From contig JAQTRS010000008.1 of assembly GCA_028711705.1 (NCBI GenBank), positions 1 to 58,506 of the forward strand: 58,506 nt of DNA, written 5' to 3'. The position numbers and the translations under genes are program-made. The DNA is from Candidatus Moraniibacteriota bacterium (GTDB lineage: Bacteria > Patescibacteriota > Minisyncoccia > Moranbacterales > UBA1568). How positions within the stretch are numbered: position 1 is the first letter of the stretch; every line of letters starts with the position of its first letter. Positions 11,080-54,427 of this stretch are shown piece by piece. The notes under the pieces are model-generated. The model was not told where the DNA came from, did no database searches, and was given only the letters and a program-made list of their open reading frames with translations.

Positions 11080-11135
11080 GAAAATAATACCAACAATATG
11101 CAAATAAAAAAACAATTGAAAGGAGGTGAAATAAT

Positions 11136-11531
11136 ATGAAGAAAATTCAAAAAGGTTTCACCTTGATCGAACTTCTGATCGTCATCGCCATCATCGGTAT
11201 TTTGGCCTCGATCGTATTAGTAAGTTTGAGCAATGCGAGGGTGAAGGGTCAGAAAGCAGCTTTCAAGAGTGAGGTTACCGGCGCGATAGCGGGGCTTACG
11301 AGTCAGTGTGATGATGATATAAACAACGGGACATCTACTGCAGTAGTTCCAGCAGATACAACCAATACTGCATGGTCAGCTGGCGTGGCTGATTTCAGTG
11401 GCTGTGCCGCTGGTGGAAGTGGCGTATTTAGCATAACCGGAATTACTCCGATTTCGACAGCTGTTGTTACGGATGGATGCGTTAGCGCTGATGTAACAGA
11501 GGGAGGGGCTAATTTTACAAATTGCCCGTAG
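11136..11531 (+). CDS. Type IV prepilin-like protein (pilin 1)
   Basis: A 131-aa prepilin. The short positive leader MKKIQKG is cut by prepilin peptidase before FTLIELLIV, with the conserved Glu at mature position 5, and a 25-residue hydrophobic helix follows ([17 protein letters not shown]). The globular part has four cysteines (QCDD, GCAAG, GCVS and the terminal NCP), also found in pilins 2 and 3, suggesting two disulfides. It would be assembled by the adjacent PilB/PilC machine. The prepilin peptidase is not in this window. Strong ribosome binding and its own promoter fit a major, highly made pilin. Confidence 0.93.
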   Translation: MKKIQKGFTLIELLIVIAIIGILASIVLVSLSNARVKGQKAAFKSEVTGAIAGLTSQCDDDINNGTSTAVVPADTTNTAWSAGVADFSGCAAGGSGVFSITGITPISTAVVTDGCVSADVTEGGANFTNCP

Positions 11532-11556
11532 GTATTAAAAAAATGTTAAAAATAAT

Positions 11557-11958
11557 ATGAAGAAATTTCAGAAAGGCTTTACGCTCATCGAACTCTTGAT
11601 CGTCATCGCCATCATCGGTATTTTGGCGTCGATTGTATTGGTGAGTTTGAGCAATGCAAGAACTAAGGCGAGTAGAGCAGCATTTGCTGGAGAAGTCTCG
11701 AGTTCGACAGCTGGTTTCTTGGTACAATGCGATAATGGCGCTATCACGCTTCCTGCCGCAACAAGCAATGTGACATGGGCTGCTGGTGGAGCTGATTCCT
11801 GCGGCGCTACCGGAGCAGGAACATTCGATGTGCAGGCTACTAATATAAAGGCATTCAGCATAACTCCTGCAGGATCCTGTGTGTTGCATGTCTCAGAGTC
11901 AGGTGTATTTACCGACGCTGCGCATACAACTGCTTTCGGAACTGCAACCTGCCCGTAA
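11557..11958 (+). CDS. Type IV prepilin-like protein (pilin 2)
   Basis: A 133-aa paralogue of pilin 1 with the same leader type ([14 protein letters not shown]), the same hydrophobic helix and four cysteines (QCDN, SCGAT, SCVLH and the terminal TCP). The N-terminal third is almost identical to its neighbours while the globular part has diverged, as in pilin families under surface selection. Only 25 nt separate it from pilin 1, and the upstream sequence lacks the strong AAAGGAGGTG site, so it is probably translated less well from the same transcript. A perfect terminator palindrome follows. Confidence 0.92.
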
Positions 11959-11978
11959 TCATATAGGTATCGATAGTC

Positions 11979-12024
11979 TACAAAATAAAAGGGTTTCGTC
12001 TAGACGAAACCCTTTTATTTTGTA
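11979..12024. terminator. Perfect 46-nt palindrome, bidirectional terminator shape
   Basis: Two 22-nt arms around a central TA: TACAAAATAAAAGGG at the left end, CCCTTTTATTTTGTA at the right end, TTTCGTC|TA|GACGAAA in the middle. The outer A/T tracts give a U-run on either strand. It separates pilin 2 from the pilin 3 promoter. Confidence 0.9.
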
Positions 12025-12032
12025 GGTGCTGA

Positions 12033-12061
12033 TTTGAATATGATGTGTAGTGATGTATACT
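12033..12061 (+). promoter_or_regulatory. Promoter of pilin gene 3
   Basis: TTTGAA (12033-12038), 17 nt, TATACT (12056-12061). The leader repeats the CAATTG-AAAGGAGGTG-AAATAAT sequence of pilin 1 (12081-12103), so pilins 1 and 3 share a duplicated leader. Confidence 0.75.
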
Positions 12062-12103
12062 GAATTATATGAATACACAGCAATTGAAAGGAGGTGAAAT
12101 AAT

Positions 12104-12481
12104 ATGAAGAAAATTCAGAAAGGTTTCACATTGATTGAGCTCTTGGTTGTCATCGCCATCATCGGTATTTTGGCGTCGATTGTGTTAGTGGCTTTGGGTA
12201 ATGCGAGGAGCAAGGCAAGAATAGCCGCTTACAAAGGGGAACTAGCTGGAGTCAAGGCCAGTTTGGTCAACGCATGTGACGCAGGCGTTCTGACTTCTGC
12301 AAATCTTCCGGCTACGGATAATCATACGGACGGATCGATCGTTGCCGGAGGGACTACTGCCGTATGCGGTTCGACAGGGAGTGGCATTTTTAATGTAACG
12401 ACGACTCCATTGAGTGCTGATGTTACTTGCGGTATGGCTACCATAACGCCGAGTGGCATAACATTCGCGAACCCATGCTAA
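12104..12481 (+). CDS. Type IV prepilin-like protein (pilin 3)
   Basis: A 125-aa paralogue of pilins 1 and 2. The leader MKKIQKG precedes [20 protein letters not shown], with Glu5 kept. Four cysteines occur again (ACDAG, VCGST, TCGMA and the terminal PC). It has its own promoter and a leader nearly identical to that of pilin 1, so it can be expressed independently and at a high level. Whether it is a second major pilin, a minor pilin or an alternative fibre subunit cannot be told from sequence. Transcription ends at the hairpin at 12535. Confidence 0.92.
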
Positions 12482-23356: not shown

Positions 23357-23474
23357 GTGCGGTGTGAGGAGATTCTTTTGTATGGGGGCTTGCGAGCGCG
23401 GCGGCGCGAGTACGAGGAATTTTTTAGCAAAAAAATATCCGTACCACATACAAAAGAATCTCCTCACACCGCAC
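23357..23474 (-). repeat. Capped palindrome element, copy 1
   Basis: Left arm 23357-23384 and right arm 23447-23474 are perfect 28-bp inverted repeats (outer end GTGCGGTGTGAG, inner end TTTTGTATG). Between them lies a 62-nt core, read on the minus strand as TGGTACGGAT...GCAAGCCCC. The core matches copies 2 and 3 closely while the arms match neither. A TTTTT tract follows the right arm, so this copy could also terminate plus-strand transcripts. It is intergenic, between the carbonic-anhydrase-like gene and the ferric-reductase-like gene. Confidence 0.9.
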
Positions 23475-36279: not shown

Positions 36280-37584
36280 ATGCCAGCATTGCAAAGACAG
36301 TCATCCGATTTTCTCCGACATATGCCGCGATACTTTTGGGTATTGATGGTCGTTTTCACGTTGACTGCCGGAGTGCTCTTCTTGGACCGCTTCCGAGTCT
36401 ATTCTTCCGAGGTGACCATCCTTGTCGTGCATAAGAATGAAAAGACGGCCGCTTCCGCCGATCAGGTGGTCTATACTATCGCGCAGCTGCCCCGGACGCT
36501 TGCTTTCTATGACAGGCTTTTGAAACAATTCCCGGAAGTCTCGGATCCATGGACGGGGCTTTCCGACGATGATCGCCGGGCGCTGTGGCAGGAACGCATA
36601 TCGGTGCATCAGATCGATAAGAGCGGACTGATCCGTTTGCAGGTCAATGCCAATACGGCTCTGGACGCGTCTTTGCTTGCGCAGAAATCGACCGTCAATC
36701 TGTTTCAGATCGTCGGGCAATACTATAATCTCCGTACCGAGATCGATGTCCGCACTGTCGAACCGATCATAGATAGCGTTGAAATTTCCCATCCGTGGGG
36801 GTGGTTTTTGGCAAGTATCAGCGCCGGGTTCGTCGCTTCCGGTATCATCTCTTCGCTTATTGCGCTGTTCTCAGAAGGTCTGCGAAGCGTCCGCACCCGA
36901 GGGTTTTCTACCGTGAAAAAGGAGAGGATCGCTCCGACACCGGTTACGTTCGGGGCCATTCCTTCGCCGCAGGCCCAACCCCAGGTTCAACACAAACAAC
37001 GAGAACCCCTCTATCGGGAATTCGTAAAGCATGCACCTATTCAGACGCCCACTTCGGTGACACAGGCGCTCCTTATGGCGCAGGCCAGGGCGCAGACGAA
37101 AGCCGCCGAGCAGGCAGCAACTCAAACGCAGGCTCAGACTCAGACCGAAGCTAAAACGCCTGTCCCGGTGGAAGTGCCGGCTCTGGCAGAGGCGGTGACC
37201 AAGGCTTCGGTGCAGGTGCACGCTCCAGCTCCAGCTCCAGCTCCAGCTCCAGCTCCAGCTCCAGCTCCAGCTCCAGCTCCAGCTCCAGCTCCAGCTCCAG
37301 CCCAAAACCTGCCATTCATGGAGGAAGGACTTTCTTTGGAAGAATACCTCTTCGGAACGCAGGAACTGTCCGCAGGCGAATCGGCAGAGGAAAAAACGCC
37401 GGCCGATGAAAAGACTCTCCTGTCAAAGGAAGAGGCGGATATCGCGAAAGCCGCTCCCGCCCCGGTCACACAAGCGCCAGCCAATCTGCCGATGGCCGAA
37501 GAGCTGCCACGGACCGCCACGGGCGAGCCGACACCGGAAGAGTTGAAGCGCCGCCTTAATCAACTCCTTAAAGGAGAAATGTAA
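36280..37584 (+). CDS. Wzz-like chain-length determinant with Ala-Pro repeat tail
   Basis: A 434-aa protein with two membrane helices, at about residues 19-37 (YFWVLMVVFTLTAGVLFL) and 170-195 (GWFLASISAGFVASGIISSLIALF). The extracytoplasmic loop between them has the size and strand pattern of Wzz/polysaccharide co-polymerase proteins. The C-terminal half is low-complexity and cytoplasmic: Gln/Ala-rich, then a perfect (AP)13 tract, then acidic. No tyrosine kinase domain follows, unlike BY-kinases. It lies in a run of glycan genes and probably controls polymer length or export. The Wzz assignment rests on topology and context. Confidence 0.7.
   Translation: MPALQRQSSDFLRHMPRYFWVLMVVFTLTAGVLFLDRFRVYSSEVTILVVHKNEKTAASADQVVYTIAQLPRTLAFYDRLLKQFPEVSDPWTGLSDDDRRALWQERISVHQIDKSGLIRLQVNANTALDASLLAQKSTVNLFQIVGQYYNLRTEIDVRTVEPIIDSVEISHPWGWFLASISAGFVASGIISSLIALFSEGLRSVRTRGFSTVKKERIAPTPVTFGAIPSPQAQPQVQHKQREPLYREFVKHAPIQTPTSVTQALLMAQARAQTKAAEQAATQTQAQTQTEAKTPVPVEVPALAEAVTKASVQVHAPAPAPAPAPAPAPAPAPAPAPAPAPAQNLPFMEEGLSLEEYLFGTQELSAGESAEEKTPADEKTLLSKEEADIAKAAPAPVTQAPANLPMAEELPRTATGEPTPEELKRRLNQLLKGEM
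37222..37299 (+). repeat. Tandem hexanucleotide repeat, 13 x GCTCCA
   Basis: Thirteen perfect GCTCCA units encode (Ala-Pro)13 within the Wzz-like gene. Unit gain or loss keeps the frame and changes only the length of a stiff Ala-Pro rod. The lack of synonymous variation among units points to recent expansion. Confidence 0.95.
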
Positions 37585-39183: not shown

Positions 39184-39709
39184 ATGAAAAAGTTTATTGT
39201 ATGGGCAATCAGTTTTGCCCTCAAACAGCAATGGGTAAGGGTTTCAGATATTGAGTCGTTATTAAAAACGGTCGTTGCTCCTTCAAAAGTGGAGCAAAAA
39301 GATGAAGTTATCGCAGTTTATCCAGATTGGGTTGAGAGTCGATTGACTCCAAACCTTGAAACAGGGAAATCAACCGGGGTTGCACATCCAAGACTGGTGT
39401 TACACGACAAACAAGTTGCCGGAGAAACCACTGATGGCCATACAATATATGCATGGCTAATTAACACAAATCAGTTGTCTGCATGCGTTGAATTGGCAGA
39501 CTTGCAGTGGTGGGAACAACATTCCGAATGAAATCCCCGAGGAGTTCAAGGGGAAATTCATCTACGCCTGGGCTTCTGTCGTTCTGGTTGGCAACGGCCA
39601 TCGGTATGCCCCGTGTCTCCGTTGCAATAGCGATGAGCCGTATGTGGATTGGTGCAGCCTCGACGGTGGTTGGGATGGCCACGAGCCTGCTGGGTTGTCC
39701 GCAAGTTAG
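39184..39709 (+). pseudogene. Cassette copy B of the 177-aa unknown protein, frameshifted
   Basis: The first frame (39184-39531) encodes 115 aa homologous to residues 1-118 of the protein at 1590, then stops at TGA after QWWEQHSE. The following residues (NEIPEEFKGKFIYAWASVV onward) continue in another frame to 39709. Alignment with copy A shows one extra T near 39521-39523 (CAACATTCCGAA against CAACACCCGAA). Promoter, leader, C-terminal region and terminator are all still recognisable. It is either a recent pseudogene, a sequencing error or a +1 frameshift product; the 115-aa form may still be made. Confidence 0.8.
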
Positions 39710-39762
39710 AACTTGGACATTAATCCCTTGGTTCTCTTTTGAACCTTTGGATTGTGTCCTTC

Positions 39763-39812
39763 GAGCCCTGCATTTTTTTTATCCATCGCGGTATATAATG
39801 CAGGGCTCTTTA
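39763..39812 (+). terminator. Terminator of cassette copy B
   Basis: GAGCCCTGCATT (39763-39774) pairs perfectly with AATGCAGGGCTC (39797-39808), then TTTATTTT. It is homologous to 2177-2229. The stretch 39813-39962 holds no gene that I can see. Confidence 0.88.
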
Positions 39813-39962
39813 TTTTGATTAAAAATCAAAGCGGTTTTTATGAAAAACGTATCAATCCTTCGATCGATTGAGTAACGGATGATTTGAGAAATCGTCCGGT
39901 GATAGGCATCCCAAATAAACCGATGGGGGATAAATTGCGCTTGCTATCGCGGAAAATAGTGG

Positions 39963-40747: not shown

Positions 40748-40864
40748 GGTTGTGGCTGTATACATTTTGTTTTGGGGTACGGATATTTTTTTGCTAAAAA
40801 ATTCCTCGTGCTCGCGCCGTCGCGACTCGCAAGCCCTCAAAACAAAATGTATACAGCCACAACC
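40748..40864 (+). repeat. Capped palindrome element, copy 2
   Basis: Arms 40748-40773 and 40839-40864 are perfect 26-bp inverted repeats (outer end GGTTGTGGCTG, inner end CATTTTGTTTT). The 65-nt core (40774-40838) begins GGGGTACGGATATTTTTTTG and ends CTCGCAAGCCCTC. It lies between rmlA and galU, 22 nt after the rmlA stop. The core is in the opposite orientation to copy 1. The core hairpin TCGCG-CCGT-CGCGA is one base pair longer than in the other copies. Confidence 0.92.
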
Positions 40865-54307: not shown

Positions 54308-54427
54308 GTGATTTGTGAGGGTGCATTATTTTTTTTGGGTACGGGTATTTTTCTGCTGAAAAATTCCTCGTCCTCGCGCCGCCGCGCTCGCAAGCCCCAA
54401 AAAAAATAATGCACCCTCACAAATCAC
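54308..54427 (+). repeat. Capped palindrome element, copy 3
   Basis: Arms 54308-54336 and 54399-54427 are perfect 29-bp inverted repeats (outer end GTGATTTGTGAGGG, inner end CATTATTTTTTTT). The 62-nt core (54337-54398) begins GGGTACGGGTATTTTTCTGC and ends CTCGCAAGCCCC. Its first hairpin reads ATTTTTC-TGCT-GAAAAAT where copies 1 and 2 have ATTTTTT-TGCT-AAAAAAT, a compensatory change. It lies between the 353-aa gene and the dnaJ control region. Confidence 0.92.

Follow-up and report, generated by a model that had tools for sequence, protein, structure and literature searches.

Among described repeat families, the Rickettsia palindromic elements (RPE) are the nearest known kind in behaviour to the element reported here: they too are small palindromic mobile DNAs that lie in frame at tolerant places of conserved genes, and no dedicated transposase is known for them. 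Passages of PMC3733652 describe R. conorii RPEs as ending in CGTC, CGTC repeats as being without a dedicated transposase and REPs as occurring in coding regions, and according to a passage of PMC6649704 the identity of RPE repeats fades over time. The REP/REPIN-RAYT (Y1) system likewise comprises small folded palindromic repeats, some within genes and some forming adjacent inverted doublets. The coding palindromes of Nematomorpha mitochondria, as described in part of PMC6649704, are perfect coding inverted repeats that are kept paired and whose midpoints are shared between species, with template switching named there as a possible mechanism. MITEs, finally, are short non-autonomous inverted-repeat elements. 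In the open-licence literature we found no description of such a palindromic element in Patescibacteria.

Three copies of the element lie in the window, by which we mean the whole 58,506-nt stretch of a Candidatus Moraniibacteriota contig analysed here, at 23357-23474 (minus strand), 40748-40864 and 54308-54427. Each consists of a core of 56-57 nt within an inverted repeat of 30-32-nt arms, which has at most one mismatch and whose sequence is not the same among the three. In copy 3, the element singled out by the initial annotation, a 32-nt left arm (54308-54339) is complementary at 32 of 32 positions to the right arm (54396-54427), and the 56-nt conserved core occupies 54340-54395, all on the plus strand. 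Copy 2, also on the plus strand, pairs at 29 of 30 positions between its left (40748-40777) and right (40835-40864) arms around a 57-nt core (40778-40834), and copy 1, read in core orientation on the minus strand, pairs at 30 of 31 between 23444-23474 (left) and 23357-23387 (right) around a 56-nt core (23388-23443). The motif TTTTY-TGCT-RAAAA, with up to one mismatch, is found three times in the window, where 0.13 occurrences would be expected, and the strands of the copies fold 10 to 13 SD better than shuffles. All three copies are intergenic: copy 2 is flanked by two nucleotidyltransferase-like genes, and copy 3 by a 353-aa ORF, for which Pfam gave no match, and a dnaJ-like gene (gene names by eye).

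The source genome (1.16 Mb, 99.5% complete) contains 15 copies that depart by at most one base from an 18-nt core pattern, of which 11 match it exactly, and a longer pattern with up to three mismatches allowed also gave 15 matches there, against 0 in the control. An exact-pattern scan of a wider genome collection returned at least 112 stretches, and 148 distinct copies (118 and 30 further) were collected and read; two variable core pair positions were left free in the pattern used to collect them. The initial annotation had proposed selection on a folded single strand from a change in the core hairpin, reading ATTTTTT-TGCT-AAAAAAT in copies 1 and 2 and ATTTTTC-TGCT-GAAAAAT in copy 3. Those letters are correct on re-reading, as is the replacement of a U-A by a C-G pair in copy 3 (C54353/G54358), which keeps the stem of this hairpin (P2, 54347-54364, plus strand). 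Three copies with one compensated pair would not in themselves be evidence; with more copies in hand and covariation tested against shuffle and slide controls, the core hairpin covaries. We used an alignment (A3) of 75 of the 118 copies, kept if the arms abut the core, the arm score is at least 14 and the core is 47-60 nt long; the 94% arm pairing seen in it depends on this choice of rows, and the core columns do not. Over the whole structure, 93.5% of A3 cells were paired (66.3% in shuffles), 594 cells were double-changed (163 in shuffles) and the covariation score was 0.668 (0.163 in shuffles), as compared with 0.10-0.15 when partners were slid by 1-3 columns. In P2, 99.6% of cells were paired, with 50 double changes across the 75 copies. 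Among 118 copies, the first core pair was TA in 86, CG in 29, AT in 1 and other in 2, and the second CG in 63, TA in 52, AT in 1, TG in 1 and other in 1. Independent variation of the two stem sides, which would have spoken against the fold, was not seen in the core, where each of the two variable positions is paired in 74 of 75 copies. Of the 75 cells at each variable core pair, G-U fills none at one and a single one at the other; this near-absence is odd under RNA selection on the strand shown, and fits either one side being recopied from the other or the other strand folding as DNA. The covariation is thus real and the proposed fold strongly supported, but selection is not its sole possible cause, since folding selection and palindrome-correcting copying are inseparable in these data.

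In A3, covariation is seen at six of the seven pairs of the second hairpin (P3), one of which, T/A (columns 48/72), becomes A/T in 8 copies. Here the initial reading of the CGCG letters, of the additional A in copy 2 and of the loop change CCGC/CCGT was correct, but the register was one base off: with more copies, the pairing is GCGC/GCGC (A3 columns 54-57 with 63-67), not CGCG/CGCG. In copy 3, the register supported by covariation gives GCGC-CGCC-GCGC at 54376-54387 (plus strand). An ACG/CGT helix from RNAfold was rejected, as the pair counts give it no support from covariation. A lower P2 helix, absent from the covariance model that we built from A3, was paired in 94.2% of cells in a further alignment of 27 model matches from diverged relatives (A4), with 15 double changes versus 4.1 in shuffles; because A4 was fitted to the model, its whole-structure covariation leans toward the structure, and the test of these particular pairs is free of that lean. 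A single strand would fold into a three-way junction made of the arm stem, P2 with its TGCT loop and P3. An extra hairpin precedes P3 in three copies of one Wildermuthbacteria genome (L099, L145, L177) and in L094.

Searching the class (383 genomes) with the covariance model turned up relatives in 55 genomes (E 1e-3 or better), many with other stem sequences in an unchanged layout; a 32-nt pattern was present in 13 of the 383, and in none of the other 11 genomes of the family or of 25 genomes of the order. The distribution is patchy, with model matches in 3 of 12 genomes of the source family, the source genome included. Across a phylum sample, 24 of 379 genomes matched, 11 of them outside the class, of which 10 were weak (E 3.6e-6 to 8.3e-4). 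Where a lineage was stated among the matches listed, the hosts were Patescibacteria (Nomura-, Taylor-, Zambryski-, Yonath-, Wildermuth-, Kaiser-, Vogel-, Nealson-, Giovannonibacteria and others), with a bin labelled Chitinivibrionales (L186), perhaps a mis-binned contig, as the lone exception. The exact pattern was absent from IMG/VR viral contigs.

Judging from a census made with a simple ORF caller, the neighbours of the 148 copies are codirectional at 57, convergent at 18 and divergent at 12; 31 copies have no near gene, 8 lie at ends and 22 lie inside ORFs, 10 sense and 12 antisense. The reading frame runs through these 22 copies (spanning ORFs of at least 150 aa, a few of which may be spurious). 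The clearest cases are in mnmA (L046, L047, L165) and iscS (L050, L052, L124, L184, L189), followed by tsaD (L094, L138, L141), MPG (L061, L063), an RNA methyltransferase gene (L180) and pheT (L181); the names at L061, L180 and L181 come from Pfam, and those at L046, L189 and L141 are backed by PDB homologues, while the remaining iscS, tsaD, mnmA and MPG names come from resemblance to these. At the insert, MnmA L046 has 37 residues versus 14 in PDB homologues, IscS L189 has 37 versus 5 and TsaD L141 has 38 versus 6. ORFs make use of two sense and three antisense core frames (with peptides such as TDIFLLKNSS and HGYFSAEKF), and stops are scarcer in the core than in shuffles, with 4.05 of 6 frames open on average versus 3.01. 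Both senses occur among the iscS copies, and the MPG gene carries the core antisense in four genomes (G064, G086, G108, G128) and sense in a fifth (G041). A replication-strand bias was weak and uncorrected for gene orientation (44 versus 26 copies on the G-rich strand at |skew| >0.03, of 95; p 0.04). At several loops, relatives have other palindromes or none, so that palindromic inserts in general appear to land in these loops; in-frame families there include GAAGTCCGACTTC and CCCCTCC types (mnmA L071, L072, L077, L078; holA-like/MPG L236-L238, L241, L245, L247).

Two copies in one genome (L132 and L157) are an identical ~117-nt unit, core and arms together, between unrelated flanks. The whole palindrome therefore moves, arms with core, and a rule that the arms are always target sequence was rejected on this pair. 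At L132/L157, the one pair looked at, there was no target-site duplication. In another genome, three copies (L111, L153, L179) combine the same 31-nt arms with three different cores, and L154 and L128 have common arms around two cores, which means that either cores have been swapped or units have recombined. The 77 matches examined include eight pairs lying close together, seven inverted and one direct.

We regard it as probable, at roughly 60%, that the family is a non-autonomous mobile palindromic DNA element of ~110-125 nt that spreads among Paceibacteria, acts as folded DNA and has its arms recopied by fold-back. The folded DNA would probably be exposed at the replication fork and recognised by a putative trans-acting nuclease or transposase; one arm may be repeatedly recopied from the other via fold-back template switching, and loss of poorly paired copies would help to keep the arms complementary. 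A mobile folded-DNA palindrome would explain the mixed orientation, the presence in genes, the scattered hosts and the covariation, and recopying by fold-back would explain concerted arms and the scarcity of G-U intermediates. As mobiliser, RAYT/Y1 was rejected: PF01797 (Y1_Tnp) occurs in 36 of 55 element genomes and 195 of 328 others (p 0.46), and the source genome has none. Reverse transcriptase and IS110 were likewise set aside, judged by presence only (two RVT_1 loci and one partial Transposase_20 match in the source genome). The reverse transcriptase loci of the source genome are L295 and L296, the latter broken over two frames.

In 87 of 118 copies the arms directly abut the core with a score of at least 11, and in 30 of the 87 they are perfect; arm statistics rest on these 87 or on 107 of 148 copies, depending on the analysis. 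Over 190 positions in nine orthologue pairs, three of which share an mnmA trio, 34 positions were compensated, 22 one-sided, 11 double unpaired and 123 unchanged. In several orthologues the arms change in concert: mnmA L046 versus L047 had 6 compensated, 1 one-sided and 19 unchanged of 26 positions, copies at the end of a spoU-like gene (L058 versus L059) had 9 compensated, 1 one-sided and 2 double unpaired, and tsaD L138 versus L141 had 3, 1 and 1, respectively. In others one-sided changes prevail, with 0 compensated and 4 one-sided in iscS (L050 versus L052), 2 and 5 in L119 versus L168, and 3 and 5 in L057 versus L103. Depending on the site, then, arms are either maintained or renewed, or they decay. 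In the first 20 arm bp of 107 copies, which are not independent of one another, G-T was found 35 times and A-C 58 times (p 0.02); this argues against RNA selection on the strand shown, which predicts the reverse, and folding of, or damage to, the other strand would give an A-C excess. Tentatively, and with less than even confidence, one could go further and regard the family as a self-correcting mobile palindrome, in which the core would be a recognition and fold-back module, the arms would rewrite each other, and cores would be exchanged or flipped within existing arms; if this were true, paired amino-acid changes would be forced on both sides of the insert in genes.

It is doubtful that the core alone is mobile and inserts in the middle of palindromes, such as terminators or other palindromic repeats, with the arms being target. 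Relatives do have core-less palindromes at the same loops (mnmA, holA-like, MPG), different cores are found within the shared arms of L111/L153/L179 and L154/L128, and the MPG core points antisense in four genomes and sense in the fifth, as would fit such insertion. However, the long loop-free palindromes that would serve as targets are rare (2 with arms of at least 25 bp in 826 kb of loci), the arms of L132 and L157 are identical at different sites, and IscS and TsaD homologues have just 5-6 residues where the insert lies. A search of the source genome for a vacant GAATTATG palindrome gave 80 matches with up to three mismatches versus 26 for the reversed pattern; 5 matches had at most one mismatch, 4 of them element arms. 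A point against the mobile folded-DNA reading is that host palindromes entered by the unit could account for several of the outer arms.

We consider it improbable that the element is a structured RNA of the flanking transcript, be it a terminator, a 3' UTR element, a riboswitch or a ribozyme. The stable fold and its covariation would be expected of such an RNA, and many copies do lie a few bases past a stop codon (median 13 nt). Yet copies occur in both orientations, in divergent regions and in frame within genes in both senses, and this neutrality of orientation and location makes an RNA role within the flanking transcript unlikely; nor does the strand shown favour G-T over A-C. The Rfam scan of the window returned SSU rRNA only, leaving the element without a family match, and at copy 3 all Rfam matches were below threshold and no family fits. 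An intrinsic terminator was rejected on the census of location and orientation, that is, on orientation and position criteria only. An inverted target duplication made at insertion, by fold-back priming from the 3' end of the core, is also unlikely as the origin of the arms: the mnmA outer left arm CAAGACAAAAA is found in a relative without the core and outer arms differ among copies with common inner arms, but L132 and L157 carry identical arms at different sites and the native loop of MPG relatives is ~3 residues, which makes both arms extra there.

The element shares with RPEs an in-frame palindromic insert (22 of 148 copies, with three sets of homologues lacking the insert) and differs from them in that the conserved part is the centre, whereas the arms vary between copies and yet mostly stay paired. 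The CGTC end tag of RPEs is absent in A3, in which the ends are variable arms and CGTC appears nowhere but in the P3 loop, where many copies have it, and the GTAG tag that lies beside REP hairpins is absent from the A3 alignment and arm composition; since these end tags are absent, we have not filed the element as RPE or REP. It further departs from REP/REPIN in its lack of Y1_Tnp association, its three-way-junction core and its long variable arms. Nematomorpha palindromes, in the part of PMC6649704 cited above, have no conserved core, are mitochondrial and are without demonstrated mobility. From MITEs the element appears to differ in that its arms are complementary but have no common terminal repeat, and in the lack of a target duplication at the one pair L132/L157. 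Patescibacteria genomes are small, yet this palindromic element lies in frame within conserved enzymes of theirs, such as MnmA, IscS, TsaD and PheT. Its family provides many natural replicates of how long bacterial palindromes arise, persist and stay perfect, informs how proteins accept such inserts, and offers a clear test of folding selection versus fold-back copying.

The window holds other repeats as well. A loop-free perfect 24-bp palindrome without the element core lies at 11978-12025, and a 188-nt segment occurs three times, spaced and 70-73% identical, over ORFs of ~130 aa at 11129-12284. Two ~500-nt segments (1719-2234 and 39304-39823), 37.6 kb apart, are 82-88% identical, the first not far downstream of a 16S rRNA end (1-156). 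At 37210-37319, a 12-nt repeat, GCTCCAGCTCCA, encodes an Ala-Pro run in ORF 36280-37584.
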